From: Mycobacterium sp. BK086
GTDB taxonomy: Bacteria; Actinomycetota; Actinomycetes; Mycobacteriales; Mycobacteriaceae
Assembly (NCBI GenBank): GCA_004362315.1
Contig: SNWL01000004.1
Coordinates: 868,001-932,000 of the forward strand
Direction: 5' to 3'
Length of the DNA stretch: 64,000 nucleotides
Each line of letters opens with the position of its first letter. Within the stretch, counting starts at the first letter, position 1. A program made the translations under genes and the position numbers. The notes under the pieces were generated by a model that saw nothing but the letters and a program-made list of their open reading frames with translations, searched no databases and was not told the DNA's origin. Of this stretch, positions 20,027-24,771 are shown piece after piece.

Positions 20027-21193
20027 GTGACTTCCATCAAGCGGGCTGGGCGACTGACGACATTCGGATTCGCAATCGGCAGTGGTTTGCTGATCGCTTC
20101 TGGGGCTGGTGCCGCGGTGGCCGCCGCCGCACCGGATGATTCGGGCCACGCGTCGAGCGGGGCTTCCTCGGTGTCGAGCAGTTCGGCGTCATCTGCCCGC
20201 TCGGCCCGTACGTCGACGAGCACAGCGAGCAAGCCCAAACCGCCGCGCACCGCGAGCACGCGCACCGATTTTTCGGCACCGGTCGTCCAGCTGCAGACGA
20301 AGCGCTCACCGGCTCCGGCCAATGCGGCCGCAGCTTCGCCGACCACTGAGAACACGATCTCTGTTCCCGCGGCGGCCAAACGGGCCGCGCCTCGACGTGT
20401 TCCCGGACTACCGACTCCGGCCGAGTTCCAGCAGACCATCACCGACGGTCTCGGCTCCGTGCGGCGGAGCCTCGACGACCTGCGCGGAAAGATCGAGACG
20501 CTGGTTCAGAACCAGATCGTCGGATTCCAGAACAGCCTGCTGGACCTTCAGATCGACCTCCGGCGCGTCTTCAGCAACAAGCCGCTCATCTACGGCAACC
20601 CCGCCAACTCCCAATATTGGGTGGCGCAGGCGGACGAGACCGCCTATCTGATGGCCGCGGCAATGGTGATCAACCGGCTCACCGGTGCGACGGTGACTGC
20701 GGATTCCCTCGTGACGGAGGCGATGGCGACCAACAGCACCACTCGGCCGAACCGCAAGATGTACCTCGGTCCGACCACACCGGACTATGTTTGGCCGGCC
20801 GACGCATACCAGCTGATGGAGAACCACGGCGTCAGCGTGACCACGACGTCGTACAGCCGCACCCAGGGGCGCCGCGCACTCGCGGCCCTGGAAACCGCGT
20901 TGGCTGAGGGCAAGTCGGTCATCGTGACCGTCAACGGTCCGGCCGTCTCGCTCGCAGATCCCGGACAAGAGGAGATCGGAGAGCATCCCGTGGTGGTGCT
21001 CGCGATCGACATCACCAACGACGTGGTCTATTTCAACGATGGCGCACTGCCGCAGGGCGGCCAACAACGCACGATGCCACTCGACAAGTTCATCGACACC
21101 TGGCGCACCTCGTTCTACAACGCAACCTTCGCGGTGGCGGCACCAGTCACGCCACAGACGGTGTCGCCTGCGACCGAAGCCATCGCCGCATGA
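20027..21193 (+). CDS. Exported C39-like (papain-fold) protein A, catalytic Cys replaced by Ala
   Basis: A 388-residue protein starting at GTG 20027 after GGCGGGGG; the longer frame to 19931 would cross the promoter. The N terminus (KRAGRLTTFGFAIGSGLLIASGAGAAVAAAAPDDSGH) is split here only for description: a basic start, a hydrophobic core and an Ala-rich cleavage zone. A long Ser/Ala/Pro/Lys linker, a helical segment (LDDLRGKIETLVQNQI) and a C-terminal C39-like domain follow. The position of the nucleophilic Cys is Ala (ETAYLMAAAM), whereas His (GEHPVVVLAID) and the later NDGA are retained. It is predicted to be a pseudo-protease. First of four paralogues. Confidence 0.82.
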   Translation: MTSIKRAGRLTTFGFAIGSGLLIASGAGAAVAAAAPDDSGHASSGASSVSSSSASSARSARTSTSTASKPKPPRTASTRTDFSAPVVQLQTKRSPAPANAAAASPTTENTISVPAAAKRAAPRRVPGLPTPAEFQQTITDGLGSVRRSLDDLRGKIETLVQNQIVGFQNSLLDLQIDLRRVFSNKPLIYGNPANSQYWVAQADETAYLMAAAMVINRLTGATVTADSLVTEAMATNSTTRPNRKMYLGPTTPDYVWPADAYQLMENHGVSVTTTSYSRTQGRRALAALETALAEGKSVIVTVNGPAVSLADPGQEEIGEHPVVVLAIDITNDVVYFNDGALPQGGQQRTMPLDKFIDTWRTSFYNATFAVAAPVTPQTVSPATEAIAA

Positions 21194-21249
21194 TCACCGA
21201 CCGGGCGGCCTCAACAGTTCTCATTGAAGGTGATTTGGCGGGGGTCAAC

Positions 21250-22431
21250 ATGAAATCCAGCAAGCGTGCCGGGCGGATCACGACATTCGGGTTCGCGGTC
21301 GGAGCAGGTCTGCTGATCGCAGCGGGTGCCGGTGCCGCGGTCGCCAGCGCGGCGCCCGAAGACTCCGGGCACACCGCAACCAGCTCCGCGGCGTCGAGTA
21401 GCTCAGCGTCCTCGGCGCGATCAGCTCGGCCCGCGACCGGCGCAGCCGGCAAGCCCAAGCCAACGCGCATAGTGACAACCGGTAGCGACACGGCGGCACC
21501 GGTGGTGAAGCTGCAGACCAAGCCCGCGTCGGCCGCCACGGCGGTGAGCACGAAGCCGGCTCCGGCGTCGGGCGAGCTCACCTCGGCGTCCGCTCCCGTA
21601 GTCAAACAAGCAGCGGCGGAACGGGTTCCGACCACCGCCCGGGCGCCGCGGGCGGCCCTGGACATCGCAAGGGATCTCAACACCCTGCGCCGCAATATCG
21701 AGCTGTTGATCCGGCACCAAATCGACGACTTGCGCCAAAACCTGACCGCTCTTCGGTCCGATCTCGCCGCGATTTTCGCTCCGGCCCGGCGCCCGACCAA
21801 CCCCGACATCCCGGCGGATGAAACGCCGGGCGTCATCGGCACACCGCGCAGCCGGGAGGGCTACTTCATCTATCAGGGGCAGACCAACACGTGCGCTCTG
21901 TCCACGGCCGCGATGCTCATCGGGCAGATCTATGGTCGAGACGCGATGCCGACCTGGGAGCAGATCGTCAACGAGGCGGCGACCACGCCGAGCTACACGA
22001 AGCCGGGCCAGCCGATCTACGACCGCGTGAACGACACCTTCGTGAGCACCACCGATGTACTCCAGCTGTTGCAGACCCACGGGGTCACCCCGAAGTCGAC
22101 CGAATACACCAGGGGCCAAGGAGATCTCGCGCTGACCAATCTCAAGGCGGCGCTTACTCGAGGTGACGCGATCGCCGTGTCGGTCAAAGCCGACATCATC
22201 TGGGGCAACGACGCGCCTGACACCGCATACACGGGTGACCATCTGATCACCGTGCTGGGAATCGACATGAACAAGAACGTCGTCTACGTCAACGACAGCG
22301 CCTGGGAGCAGAGCAAGGGTATGGGCATGGCACTGCCGATGAAGGTGTTCCTGAGCGGTTGGGCGGCGGACTCCTACACGACCATCACCGCCGTCGCCGC
22401 GGCATCCTCGCAAACCACACTCGCAGCCTGA
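21250..22431 (+). CDS. Exported C39-like cysteine peptidase B, active-site residues present
   Basis: A 393-residue paralogue with an ATG at 21250 after GGCGGGGGT. It has the same signal peptide and linker layout. The C-terminal domain contains YQGQTNTCALSTAAM (Gln and Cys nucleophile), GDHLITVLGID (His) and VYVNDSA (Asn/Asp), the order expected of C39-like papain-fold peptidases. It is probably a secreted protease, amidase or transglutaminase-like enzyme acting at the cell surface. It follows gene A by 56 bp and precedes gene C by 34 bp, each with its own ribosome site. Confidence 0.82.
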   Translation: MKSSKRAGRITTFGFAVGAGLLIAAGAGAAVASAAPEDSGHTATSSAASSSSASSARSARPATGAAGKPKPTRIVTTGSDTAAPVVKLQTKPASAATAVSTKPAPASGELTSASAPVVKQAAAERVPTTARAPRAALDIARDLNTLRRNIELLIRHQIDDLRQNLTALRSDLAAIFAPARRPTNPDIPADETPGVIGTPRSREGYFIYQGQTNTCALSTAAMLIGQIYGRDAMPTWEQIVNEAATTPSYTKPGQPIYDRVNDTFVSTTDVLQLLQTHGVTPKSTEYTRGQGDLALTNLKAALTRGDAIAVSVKADIIWGNDAPDTAYTGDHLITVLGIDMNKNVVYVNDSAWEQSKGMGMALPMKVFLSGWAADSYTTITAVAAASSQTTLAA

Positions 22432-22465
22432 GGGTGTTAACCAGAATGGACGGAGCGGGGGCCGA

Positions 22466-23617
22466 ATGACTTCCATCAAGCGTGCTGGACGACTTACGAC
22501 ATTCGGCTTCGCAGTGGGCGCCGGCCTGCTGGTTGCTTCGGGTGCGGGCGCCGCGGTAGCCGCGGCCGCGCCGGATGACGCGAGCCACGGGTCGACCACC
22601 AGCGCCTCGGCATCGAACAGTGCATCGTCATCGGCACGCTCGGCTCGGCCCGCCACCGGCAAGACAGCCAAACCGAAACCGGCCCGCACGGTCAGCAGCA
22701 GTGACGTCTCGGCACCGGTCATACACCTGCACACCAAGCACTCGCAACCCGCGGCCAGCACGTCGGCAGCGACCGACGACATCACCGCCACACCGGCCAC
22801 GTCCACCAAGCAAGCAACTGTCAAACGCGCTGCCGCACTACCGACTCCGGACCAGGTCCAGCAGACCATCGTCGCGGGGCTTGATTCGGCTCGTCGCAGG
22901 CTCGACGACCTGCGCCAGAAGATCGAGACGCTCGTACAGAATCAGATCATCGGCTTCCAGGACAATCTGGTCACGCTGCGCATCGACCTGGAGCGGGTCT
23001 TCAACCCCAACAGGCAGATCATCTACGGCAACCTCGCCAACGCCCAGTACTGGGCGGCCGGGGGTGCCCAGACCTCGAATCTGATGGCGGCGGCCATGGT
23101 GATCAGCGCGATCACCGGTCAGACCGTCACCGCGCAGAACATCATCGACGAAGCGATGAACACCGACAGCGTCGCGAGACCCGGCCGAGCGATGTACCTG
23201 GGCACCAACACCTACGACTGGGTGTGGGCGACCGACGCCGTCCAGCTCATGGAGAACCACGGTGTCAAGGTGACCACCGTCTACTACACCAAGTCCCAGG
23301 AGCAGCGGGCCCTGAACACGGTTGAAACCGCACTCTCACAAGGCAAATCGGTGATCGTGAGCATCAACGGCACGGTCGTCTCGAGCAACACCAGCAGTCA
23401 GGAACAGTGGACGACCGAACACCAGGCGGTGCTTCTCGGCATCAACATCACGAAGAATCTGGTCTACCTCAACGACGGCGCGAACCCGCAGGGCCAGAAC
23501 CTCACGATGTCGATCGAAGACTTCCTGGACGCCTGGCAGGCCAGCCGCTACACCGCGATCCTCGCCGAACCGGCACCCGCCACAGCACAAGCCACCCGGG
23601 AGGCGATCGCAGCATGA
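22466..23617 (+). CDS. Exported C39-like protein C, catalytic Cys replaced by Ser
   Basis: A 383-residue paralogue starting at ATG 22466 behind GCGGGGGCC. It is closest to gene A: both have QYW... at the front of the domain and a helix LDDLRxKIETLVQNQI. The nucleophile position reads TSNLMAAAM, that is Ser where B and D have Cys. His (TEHQAVLLGIN) and NDGA remain. It is either a pseudo-enzyme or a Ser variant of low activity. Its stop codon overlaps the start of gene D (ATGA). Confidence 0.82.
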   Translation: MTSIKRAGRLTTFGFAVGAGLLVASGAGAAVAAAAPDDASHGSTTSASASNSASSSARSARPATGKTAKPKPARTVSSSDVSAPVIHLHTKHSQPAASTSAATDDITATPATSTKQATVKRAAALPTPDQVQQTIVAGLDSARRRLDDLRQKIETLVQNQIIGFQDNLVTLRIDLERVFNPNRQIIYGNLANAQYWAAGGAQTSNLMAAAMVISAITGQTVTAQNIIDEAMNTDSVARPGRAMYLGTNTYDWVWATDAVQLMENHGVKVTTVYYTKSQEQRALNTVETALSQGKSVIVSINGTVVSSNTSSQEQWTTEHQAVLLGINITKNLVYLNDGANPQGQNLTMSIEDFLDAWQASRYTAILAEPAPATAQATREAIAA

Positions 23618-24771
23618 GCATGACTTCCAGGAAACGAGCCGGGCGAATCGCGACATTCGGCTTCGCGATCGGAGCGGGCTTGCTGATCGCGTCGGGTGCC
23701 GGCGCTGCGGTTGCCGCGGCGGCCCCGGATGACTCCGGGCACAGCGCGACGAGTAGTTCCTCGGCCTCGAGCGCCCGCACGCACAAGCCGGCCGCCGCCC
23801 GCACATCGGCGAAGCCCAAGCCCGCCTCGGCGGCGGTGATGCAGCTGCCCACAAAGCGCACGACGACCGCGGTCAGCGCCGCCTCGGTGAGCGCAGTGAG
23901 CACGCCGTCCAGCGCCGCCGCCACTCCCACTACGGCCGCCAAACAGTCACGCGCCCAACGCCTTCCCACCCCGGCGGAGGTCCAACAGGCGATCGTGGCC
24001 GGTCTGGACGCCGCCCGACGCAATCTGGACACCCTGCGCACGAATATCGAACTTCTGGTCAAGCACCAGATCGAGGGCATCCGGGACAACCTGACCACGC
24101 TGCGCTACGACCTCGAGGCCATCGTCGGCCCGTACCGGCCCCCGGTGACCCCGGACATCCCGGCAGACGATACGCCGGGGCTGATCGGCAATCCGGCCGC
24201 CAAAGAAGGACTGTTCCTCTACCAGGGCCAGACCAACAGGTGTGTCCTGATGTCGACAGGCATGGTGATCGGGCAACTGCTCGGTGCCGACAAGATGCCC
24301 ACCGCACAGCAGATCACCGACGAGGCCGCCACCACACCGAGCACCGTCTACCCCGACAAGTACATCTACGACCCGGTCGCGGACACGTACGTCGCGTACG
24401 CCGACGCTCTGCAACTGCTGGAGAATCACGGCATCACCGCGACATCGACCCAGTACTCCAAGGGGCAGGGCACCAACGCGATCAACAACGTGAAGGCCGC
24501 GCTGACGTCAGGCGAGTCGGTGATCGTGACGGTCAACGCCAGTATCGCCTGGGGCCGAGCCGCACCCGGCGACGCCGTCACCGCCAATCACGCGATCACC
24601 GTGCTGGGCATCGACACGATCAAGAACATCGTGTACGTCAACGACAGCGCATTCAACAACCCGGGGATCGCCATGAAGATGGACGTGTTCATGAGCTCCT
24701 GGGCGGCCAACGATTACCAGACCATCACCGCCTACGTCACTCCGGCGCAGCAATCCACGATCGCGGCCTGA
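23614..24771 (+). CDS. Exported C39-like cysteine peptidase D, active-site residues present
   Basis: A 385-residue paralogue starting at ATG 23614 with a 4-bp overlap on gene C, so it is translationally coupled to the dead copy. It is closest to gene B: YQGQTNRCVLMSTGM (Gln and Cys), ANHAITVLGID (His) and VYVNDSA are all present, and both B and D have NPDIPADETPG/TPDIPADDTPG before the domain. It is the last gene of the array. prfC follows after 58 bp and looks unrelated. Confidence 0.82.
   Translation: MSMTSRKRAGRIATFGFAIGAGLLIASGAGAAVAAAAPDDSGHSATSSSSASSARTHKPAAARTSAKPKPASAAVMQLPTKRTTTAVSAASVSAVSTPSSAAATPTTAAKQSRAQRLPTPAEVQQAIVAGLDAARRNLDTLRTNIELLVKHQIEGIRDNLTTLRYDLEAIVGPYRPPVTPDIPADDTPGLIGNPAAKEGLFLYQGQTNRCVLMSTGMVIGQLLGADKMPTAQQITDEAATTPSTVYPDKYIYDPVADTYVAYADALQLLENHGITATSTQYSKGQGTNAINNVKAALTSGESVIVTVNASIAWGRAAPGDAVTANHAITVLGIDTIKNIVYVNDSAFNNPGIAMKMDVFMSSWAANDYQTITAYVTPAQQSTIAA

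Follow-up and report, generated by a model that had tools for sequence, protein, structure and literature searches.

Paired dead and active C39-type peptidase homologues in mycobacteria: a candidate two-subunit exported enzyme

Four C39-like genes in the window

Between positions 20,027 and 24,771 of a 64,000-nucleotide stretch of Mycobacterium sp. BK086 (assembly GCA_004362315.1, contig SNWL01000004.1, positions 868,001 to 932,000; hereafter the window), four co-directional genes, A to D, encode C39-like proteins in which the catalytic cysteine is alternately absent and present. An earlier note on this DNA had claimed such an array of alternating dead and active copies. The four frames proved open at the coordinates given there, and all four proteins passed the gathering score of 24 bits that Pfam sets for PF13529 (Peptidase_C39_2). 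The genes and their C39_2 domains, the latter placed by an iterated profile, are as follows:

20027..21193, + strand: gene A, pseudoprotease with predicted export signal (GTG start, 388 aa; PF13529 30.3 bits)
20588..21133, + strand: C39_2 domain of A (dead)
21250..22431, + strand: gene B, C39_2 peptidase, predicted exported and active (393 aa; PF13529 35.0 bits)
21832..22392, + strand: C39_2 domain of B (active)
22466..23617, + strand: gene C, pseudoprotease with predicted export signal (383 aa; PF13529 30.8 bits)
23021..23569, + strand: C39_2 domain of C (dead)
23614..24771, + strand: gene D, C39_2 peptidase, predicted exported and active (385 aa; PF13529 32.2 bits)
24181..24732, + strand: C39_2 domain of D (active)

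At the position of the nucleophile, A has Ala206 (20642-20644), B Cys215 (21892-21894), C Ser204 (23075-23077) and D Cys210 (24241-24243). His and Asn-Asp are present in all four proteins (His331 and Asp349 in B), as had been claimed. A catalytic cysteine sited elsewhere in A or C is excluded, since both proteins are free of cysteine and thus cannot contain a relocated nucleophile; B and D have one cysteine each, the catalytic one. Consequently, the claim of two dead copies stands. The Gln that precedes Cys is gone in C, and A has a Gln at -5. As judged from these residues, A and C are non-peptidase homologues whose nucleophile is missing.

The C39 domains of A and C are 55.8% identical and those of B and D 56.0%, versus 33.7-40.2% in the four cross pairs, and a phylogenetic tree (see below) likewise places A with C and B with D. 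A topology that joins A-type with B-type domains was rejected (approximately unbiased test, p-AU 0.0003). Thus the resemblances noted earlier, and the duplication of a unit of one dead and one active gene that had been deduced from them, are both borne out.

The stop codon of C and the start codon of D overlap as ATGA at 23614-23617, which agrees with the coupling proposed for these two genes. Gene B has an in-frame ATG at 21190 that overlaps the stop of A, and A and B may thus be translationally coupled like C and D; of the two starts, that at 21250 matches the other export signals in the alignment. These signals (20027-20140, 21250-21360, 22466-22575 and 23614-23730) are far more alike than the linkers that follow them, with a run of invariant columns at 1-36 of the alignment, a similarity that may stem from gene conversion or from selection on the signal.

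Occurrence, order and ancestry of the pairs

The four proteins were used as queries against 148 genomes of the genus. Subsequently, a set of 13 dead domains (A2) and a set of 13 active partners (A3) were searched against 396 genomes of the genus, and A2 against 397 genomes in 85 genera of the order. In the A2 and A3 searches the eight best candidates per genome were scored; their reach is dead domains that resemble A2, and most matches below about 150 bits were not fetched. In the fetched regions (cited below by handles beginning with L) domains were located with an iterated profile and their catalytic residues recorded; L082 and L087-L090 were excluded as repeats of L038-L042.

With A2, 36 matches of at least 200 bits were obtained in 26 of the 396 genomes. 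The dead domain of L110 (155 bits; its active half scores 181 bits) comes in addition and lies within one of those 26. In the sample of the order, A2 matches of at least 200 bits were confined to the window's own genus (5 matches in 4 genomes). Together this gives 37 units in 26 genomes, and every one of the 37 has its dead domain immediately upstream of, or N-terminal to, the active one. The units comprise 23 adjacent two-gene pairs, all on the same strand, and 14 single-chain fusions with the dead domain first, and nine genomes hold two or three of them. Four-gene arrays are of two kinds: the A-D type (window, L038, L039, L040) and that of L056, with Ala, Cys, His and Cys in turn. A near in-frame Met of the active gene, from a 4-base overlap to 57 bases past the stop of the dead gene, was found in 19 of the 23 two-gene units and in none of L092, L042, L041 and the second unit of L040, Met being the only start scored. 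Since the pattern recurs in 26 genomes, it is not a matter of chance.

Partner-clade members without a dead half were not found among the listed matches of the A3 search of 396 genomes, which recovered the same 26 genomes, although a very diverged orphan could escape such a search. Likewise, none of the 37 units has a frameshifted or absent dead half next to an intact partner. One A3 match above 200 bits (G349, 205.9 bits) is not a partner, as the tree places it in an unpaired group of 720-aa proteins (L120). By size and score, three frames of 728-731 aa (G301, G221, G180), which reached 162-170 bits against A2 or A3, were assigned to the same group.

The catalytic residues follow the same division. 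All 37 partners retain Cys, His and Asn-Asp, and none of the 37 dead domains has Cys at the nucleophile position (Ala in 17, Ser in 15, His in 3, Gly in 2). Asn-Asp is kept in all 37 dead domains. Their His is kept in 23 and replaced by Lys in 14, which are the 14 fused ones, and Gln at -5 or -6 occurs in 12. Among active domains this Gln stands at -6 in 36 of the 37 partners and at -5 in 46 of 60 unpaired relatives.

The tree comprised 136 domains and excluded the degenerate ones of L058 and L126. The 37 dead domains form one clade with support of 100/100 (100/99 with the catalytic columns removed), and the 37 partners form another with 98/91 (86/88, not starred, with these columns removed); 60 further active domains that were sampled fall outside both. 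Because both clades survive removal of the catalytic columns, the grouping is not produced by the lost residues. That A and C lost Cys independently is ruled out by the rejected topology together with this single dead clade. The tree also indicates that the split between dead and active domains predates the duplication in the window and is common to the fused proteins.

The distances that separate dead domains from one another run parallel to those between their partners (r 0.92). Shared species history partly raises this value, which is controlled for by within-genome swaps in the nine genomes that hold more than one unit; none of 5000 such swaps (maximum 0.909) and none of 5000 permutations (maximum 0.25) reached it. 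From the clades and the mirrored distances we infer that the pair probably had a single origin, after which it was duplicated and relocated as a unit and, in one lineage of dead halves, fused. The 14 fused dead halves fall into one clade (100/99). As for the fused active halves, the active domains of L056 and L059 weakly join that of L105 (2 changes; 1 change, with support of 67/33, without the catalytic columns). Thus a single fusion event is clear for the dead halves only.

To assess selection, the ratio of nonsynonymous to synonymous substitution rates (dN/dS) was determined in eight groups that cover 33 of the 37 units (73 comparisons), L105, L108, L110 and the second unit of L056 having no close relative. 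Group medians for the C39 domains were 0.07-0.34 for dead halves and 0.05-0.29 for partners, and the largest single value of a dead domain was 0.51. Seven of the eight groups show slightly weaker constraint on the dead half than on its partner; in the C-D group the reverse holds (0.157 for the dead half vs 0.285). By this measure the dead domains tested (33 of 37) are under purifying selection, and decay of the dead copies was rejected on these values, which are well below 1.

Domain layout and neighbouring genes

Each of the four window proteins consists of an N-terminal hydrophobic export signal with an Ala-rich end, a stretch rich in Ser, Ala and Pro, a helical-looking segment and the C39_2 domain. 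Signals and segments were read by eye, the latter with the help of alignments:

20408..20575, + strand: helical-looking segment ahead of the C39 domain of A
21640..21783, + strand: helical-looking segment of B
22838..23008, + strand: helical-looking segment of C
23962..24132, + strand: helical-looking segment of D

In the fused relatives, a linker of 72-85 residues joins the dead and active C39 domains, and similar helical-looking segments precede both. These proteins were linked to A-D by the iterated profile and the tree; one of them is encoded at L094:5968-7539 on the minus strand. The dead region of L105 gives a sub-threshold match to Peptidase_C70 (17.1 bits vs 19).

The genome from which the window comes measures 6.93 Mb and has six PF13529 matches, A-D included. 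The top named relatives of the locus are Mycolicibacterium vinylchloridicum, M. rhodesiae JS60 and M. sphagni, whose best segments are 96, 95 and 72% identical to the query. The genes A-D are flanked on one side by phospholipase-D-like and MmpL-like genes and on the other by a peptide-chain-release-factor-3-like gene, names that were given from reading the translations and not from a family scan.

Neighbouring genes were compared at 32 loci. The largest shared set (31 of the 32) is represented by a frame antisense over a C39 gene. Two further sets cross unit types, namely a short-chain dehydrogenase set at 13 loci (A-D type plus L103 and L105-L107) and an FGE-sulfatase/DinB set at 8 loci (L048 type plus L091 and L094); both belong to large families and were not used. 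The remaining sets are confined to one unit type each. L043-type units adjoin ribosomal-protein genes, and L048-type units (L048, L099-L102, L104) adjoin genes for GCS2, DinB_2 plus FGE-sulfatase, a methyltransferase and a class-V aminotransferase, a neighbourhood that resembles the ergothioneine cluster. Plasmids yielded no more than weak partial matches (1 and 8 records), phages no match, and viral contigs 0 confirmed of 31 stretches.

Besides the paired units, other C39-like genes were observed. Adjoining pairs of small exported-type C39 proteins in L066-L072, which belong to a different clade, have Cys, His and Asp in both copies; together with L060, L109 and L117, all Cys/Cys, they refute a general rule that one copy of every C39 pair is dead. 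Frames of about 1130-1150 aa with a C-terminal C39 domain that keeps the catalytic Cys occur at L063:6215-9604, in the window's own genome, and at L074:3247-6693; L063 also matches the bacterial Ig domain Big_9. A separate degenerate set comprises L114:8395-8988, L115:5509-6528, L058:6176-6811 (a partial match) and L126:3405-4187, with Ser, Ser, Gly and Pro at the Cys position and active neighbours of another clade. The degenerate copy of L126 also lacks His and precedes its active gene.

The role of the dead half

What might a dead peptidase copy do beside an active one? The earlier note had suggested an obligate partner, and indirect support for this comes from the fixed order in 37 of 37 units, the 14 fusions, the mirrored trees, the purifying selection and the lack of orphans among the matches. 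Constant genetic pairing, a criterion for enzyme-pseudoenzyme heterodimers, is seen in 37 of 37 units. A lasting two-part enzyme fits best with the fixed 1:1 pairing, the coupling or fusion, the mirrored evolution and the conservation of a non-catalytic domain. We therefore lean, with some reserve, toward an exported cysteine peptidase of two subunits, present in the window in two copies (A-B and C-D), in which a pseudoprotease would be a permanent member of a lasting complex. We give about even chances to the broader view that mycobacteria evolved, a single time, an obligate two-headed exported C39 peptidase, dead plus active, that was duplicated as a unit to as many as three loci per genome and became fused, a C39 counterpart of the M16 alpha/beta enzymes.

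In such an enzyme the pseudoprotease subunit would be translated first and the catalytic C39-type subunit second, partly by translational coupling. Each would be exported by its own signal, and the two would join 1:1 outside the membrane. The dead subunit would keep its fold and serve as an essential half that shapes or holds the substrate groove or stabilises its partner, in a role like that of the inactive alpha subunit toward the active beta in M16 peptidases; in a related lineage both halves sit in one chain, joined by a linker. Peptidase activity of B and D and a supportive rather than inhibitory dead half are both part of this proposal. As far as sequence goes, the dead half may activate, restrain or feed its partner.

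Several observations weigh against this proposal. The system occurs in just 26 of 396 genomes and is thus dispensable for the genus. The Pfam scan misses the dead domains of the fused L094, L105 and L052, although it recognises A and C, and the fused active domains stay below the PF13529 cut-off (22.9, 18.5 and 17.2 bits, respectively, vs 24). The helical-looking segment is absent in 5 of 11 representative dead halves (L048, L102, L110 and both of L056) and is thus no general dimerisation element. Profile searches gave no match better than E 0.1 to a relative of solved structure (best E 0.44 and 0.11). Among the neighbours at 32 loci, which differ between unit types, no shared pathway, substrate or partner gene is visible. 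Finally, the separate degenerate set ignores the order rule, as three of its four members (L058, L114, L115) sit after the active gene; thus inactivation beside an active C39 copy arose more than once, and without that rule.

Four other explanations were considered. The dead copy might be a dedicated inhibitor or latency domain. It would then sit over the partner's active site and, once outside the cell, would have to be removed, degraded or displaced before the partner could work, which would make the pair a two-part secreted zymogen. Inhibitors and propeptides often come first, as the dead half does in all 37 units, and secreted proteases often need latency. However, the dead half has a complete C39 domain, as its partner does, and in the fused lineage a linker keeps the two joined. 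We regard this explanation as unlikely, though the most serious of the four.

Slightly less probable still is that the dead copy acts as a substrate- or wall-binding adaptor which uses its old groove to deliver targets to the active copy. The precedent is the C39-like domain of HlyB, which PMC8277102 presents as a dead C39 fold that binds protein and tethers cargo in type I secretion. As in the dead domains here, which are retained and under selection, a C39-type fold was kept after loss of Cys, and its His is kept (PMC8277102), as in 23 of our 37. In contrast, the HlyB domain belongs to a Gram-negative ABC transporter, where it replaces rather than accompanies an active domain; the dead domain studied here is always paired, and Pfam scans of A-D, L094, L105 and L052 found no membrane or nucleotide-binding domain of ABC transporters. 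The adaptor role overlaps with that of a subunit in a lasting two-part enzyme.

It is very improbable that the dead copies are enzymes of altered chemistry, for example with Ser as nucleophile in C. Ser is indeed present in 15 of 37 dead domains and His in 23, but Ala, Gly or His takes the nucleophile position in the other 22, only 12 have the Gln, and Lys replaces His in 14. Moreover, Ser (window, L038, L039, L093, L095) alternates with Ala (L040, L041, L042, L092) among close C-type relatives, which makes a Ser nucleophile unlikely. Hardly credible is that these are tandem duplicates of which some copies merely decay, a scenario that could draw on the frequent tandem C39 duplication in the genus, such as in L066-L072, and on the somewhat higher dN/dS of the dead half in seven of eight groups, but that conflicts with the maximum of 0.51 in 73 comparisons, the single ancient origin, the fusions and the lack of an orphan among the listed matches.

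The two-subunit peptidase that we favour would resemble known enzymes in its manner of working. To our knowledge, few protease families contain obligate pairs of an inactive and an active member. The M16 fold is unrelated to that of C39, and no M16 family appeared when A-D were scanned with Pfam up to E 1, so that the comparison concerns the manner of working only. According to PMC12731061, a catalytic subunit and its non-catalytic homologue make up one enzyme in MPP, and single-chain M16A and M16C forms exist. That paper also names bacterial M16B partners from neighbouring genes (SPH2681/SPH2682, TTHA1264/TTHA1265, AlbE/AlbF). The units described here share with the M16 family a catalytic and a non-catalytic homologue side by side, neighbouring genes and single-chain versions. 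The M16 enzymes differ in their zinc chemistry and in that their assembly is proven, whereas here the dead half comes first and assembly is inferred.

A table in PMC10551460 includes PF13529 among the domains that are enriched in slow growers. Mycobacterial Peptidase_C39_2 proteins share the Pfam family of A-D, and the other 60 active domains sampled from them lie outside both clades. In the open-licence literature searched, neither a description of paired dead C39 copies nor a function for exported C39_2 proteins of mycobacteria was found. Enzyme-pseudoenzyme pairs as such are already known; one built from exported C39 proteins, both as two genes and as a fusion, is new as far as searched. 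Since the same pair occurs naturally as two genes, as a four-gene array and as a single fused chain, the role of the pseudoprotease half can be tested by comparing separate with joined forms. If the dead half is needed, a screen of a single gene would miss the activity.

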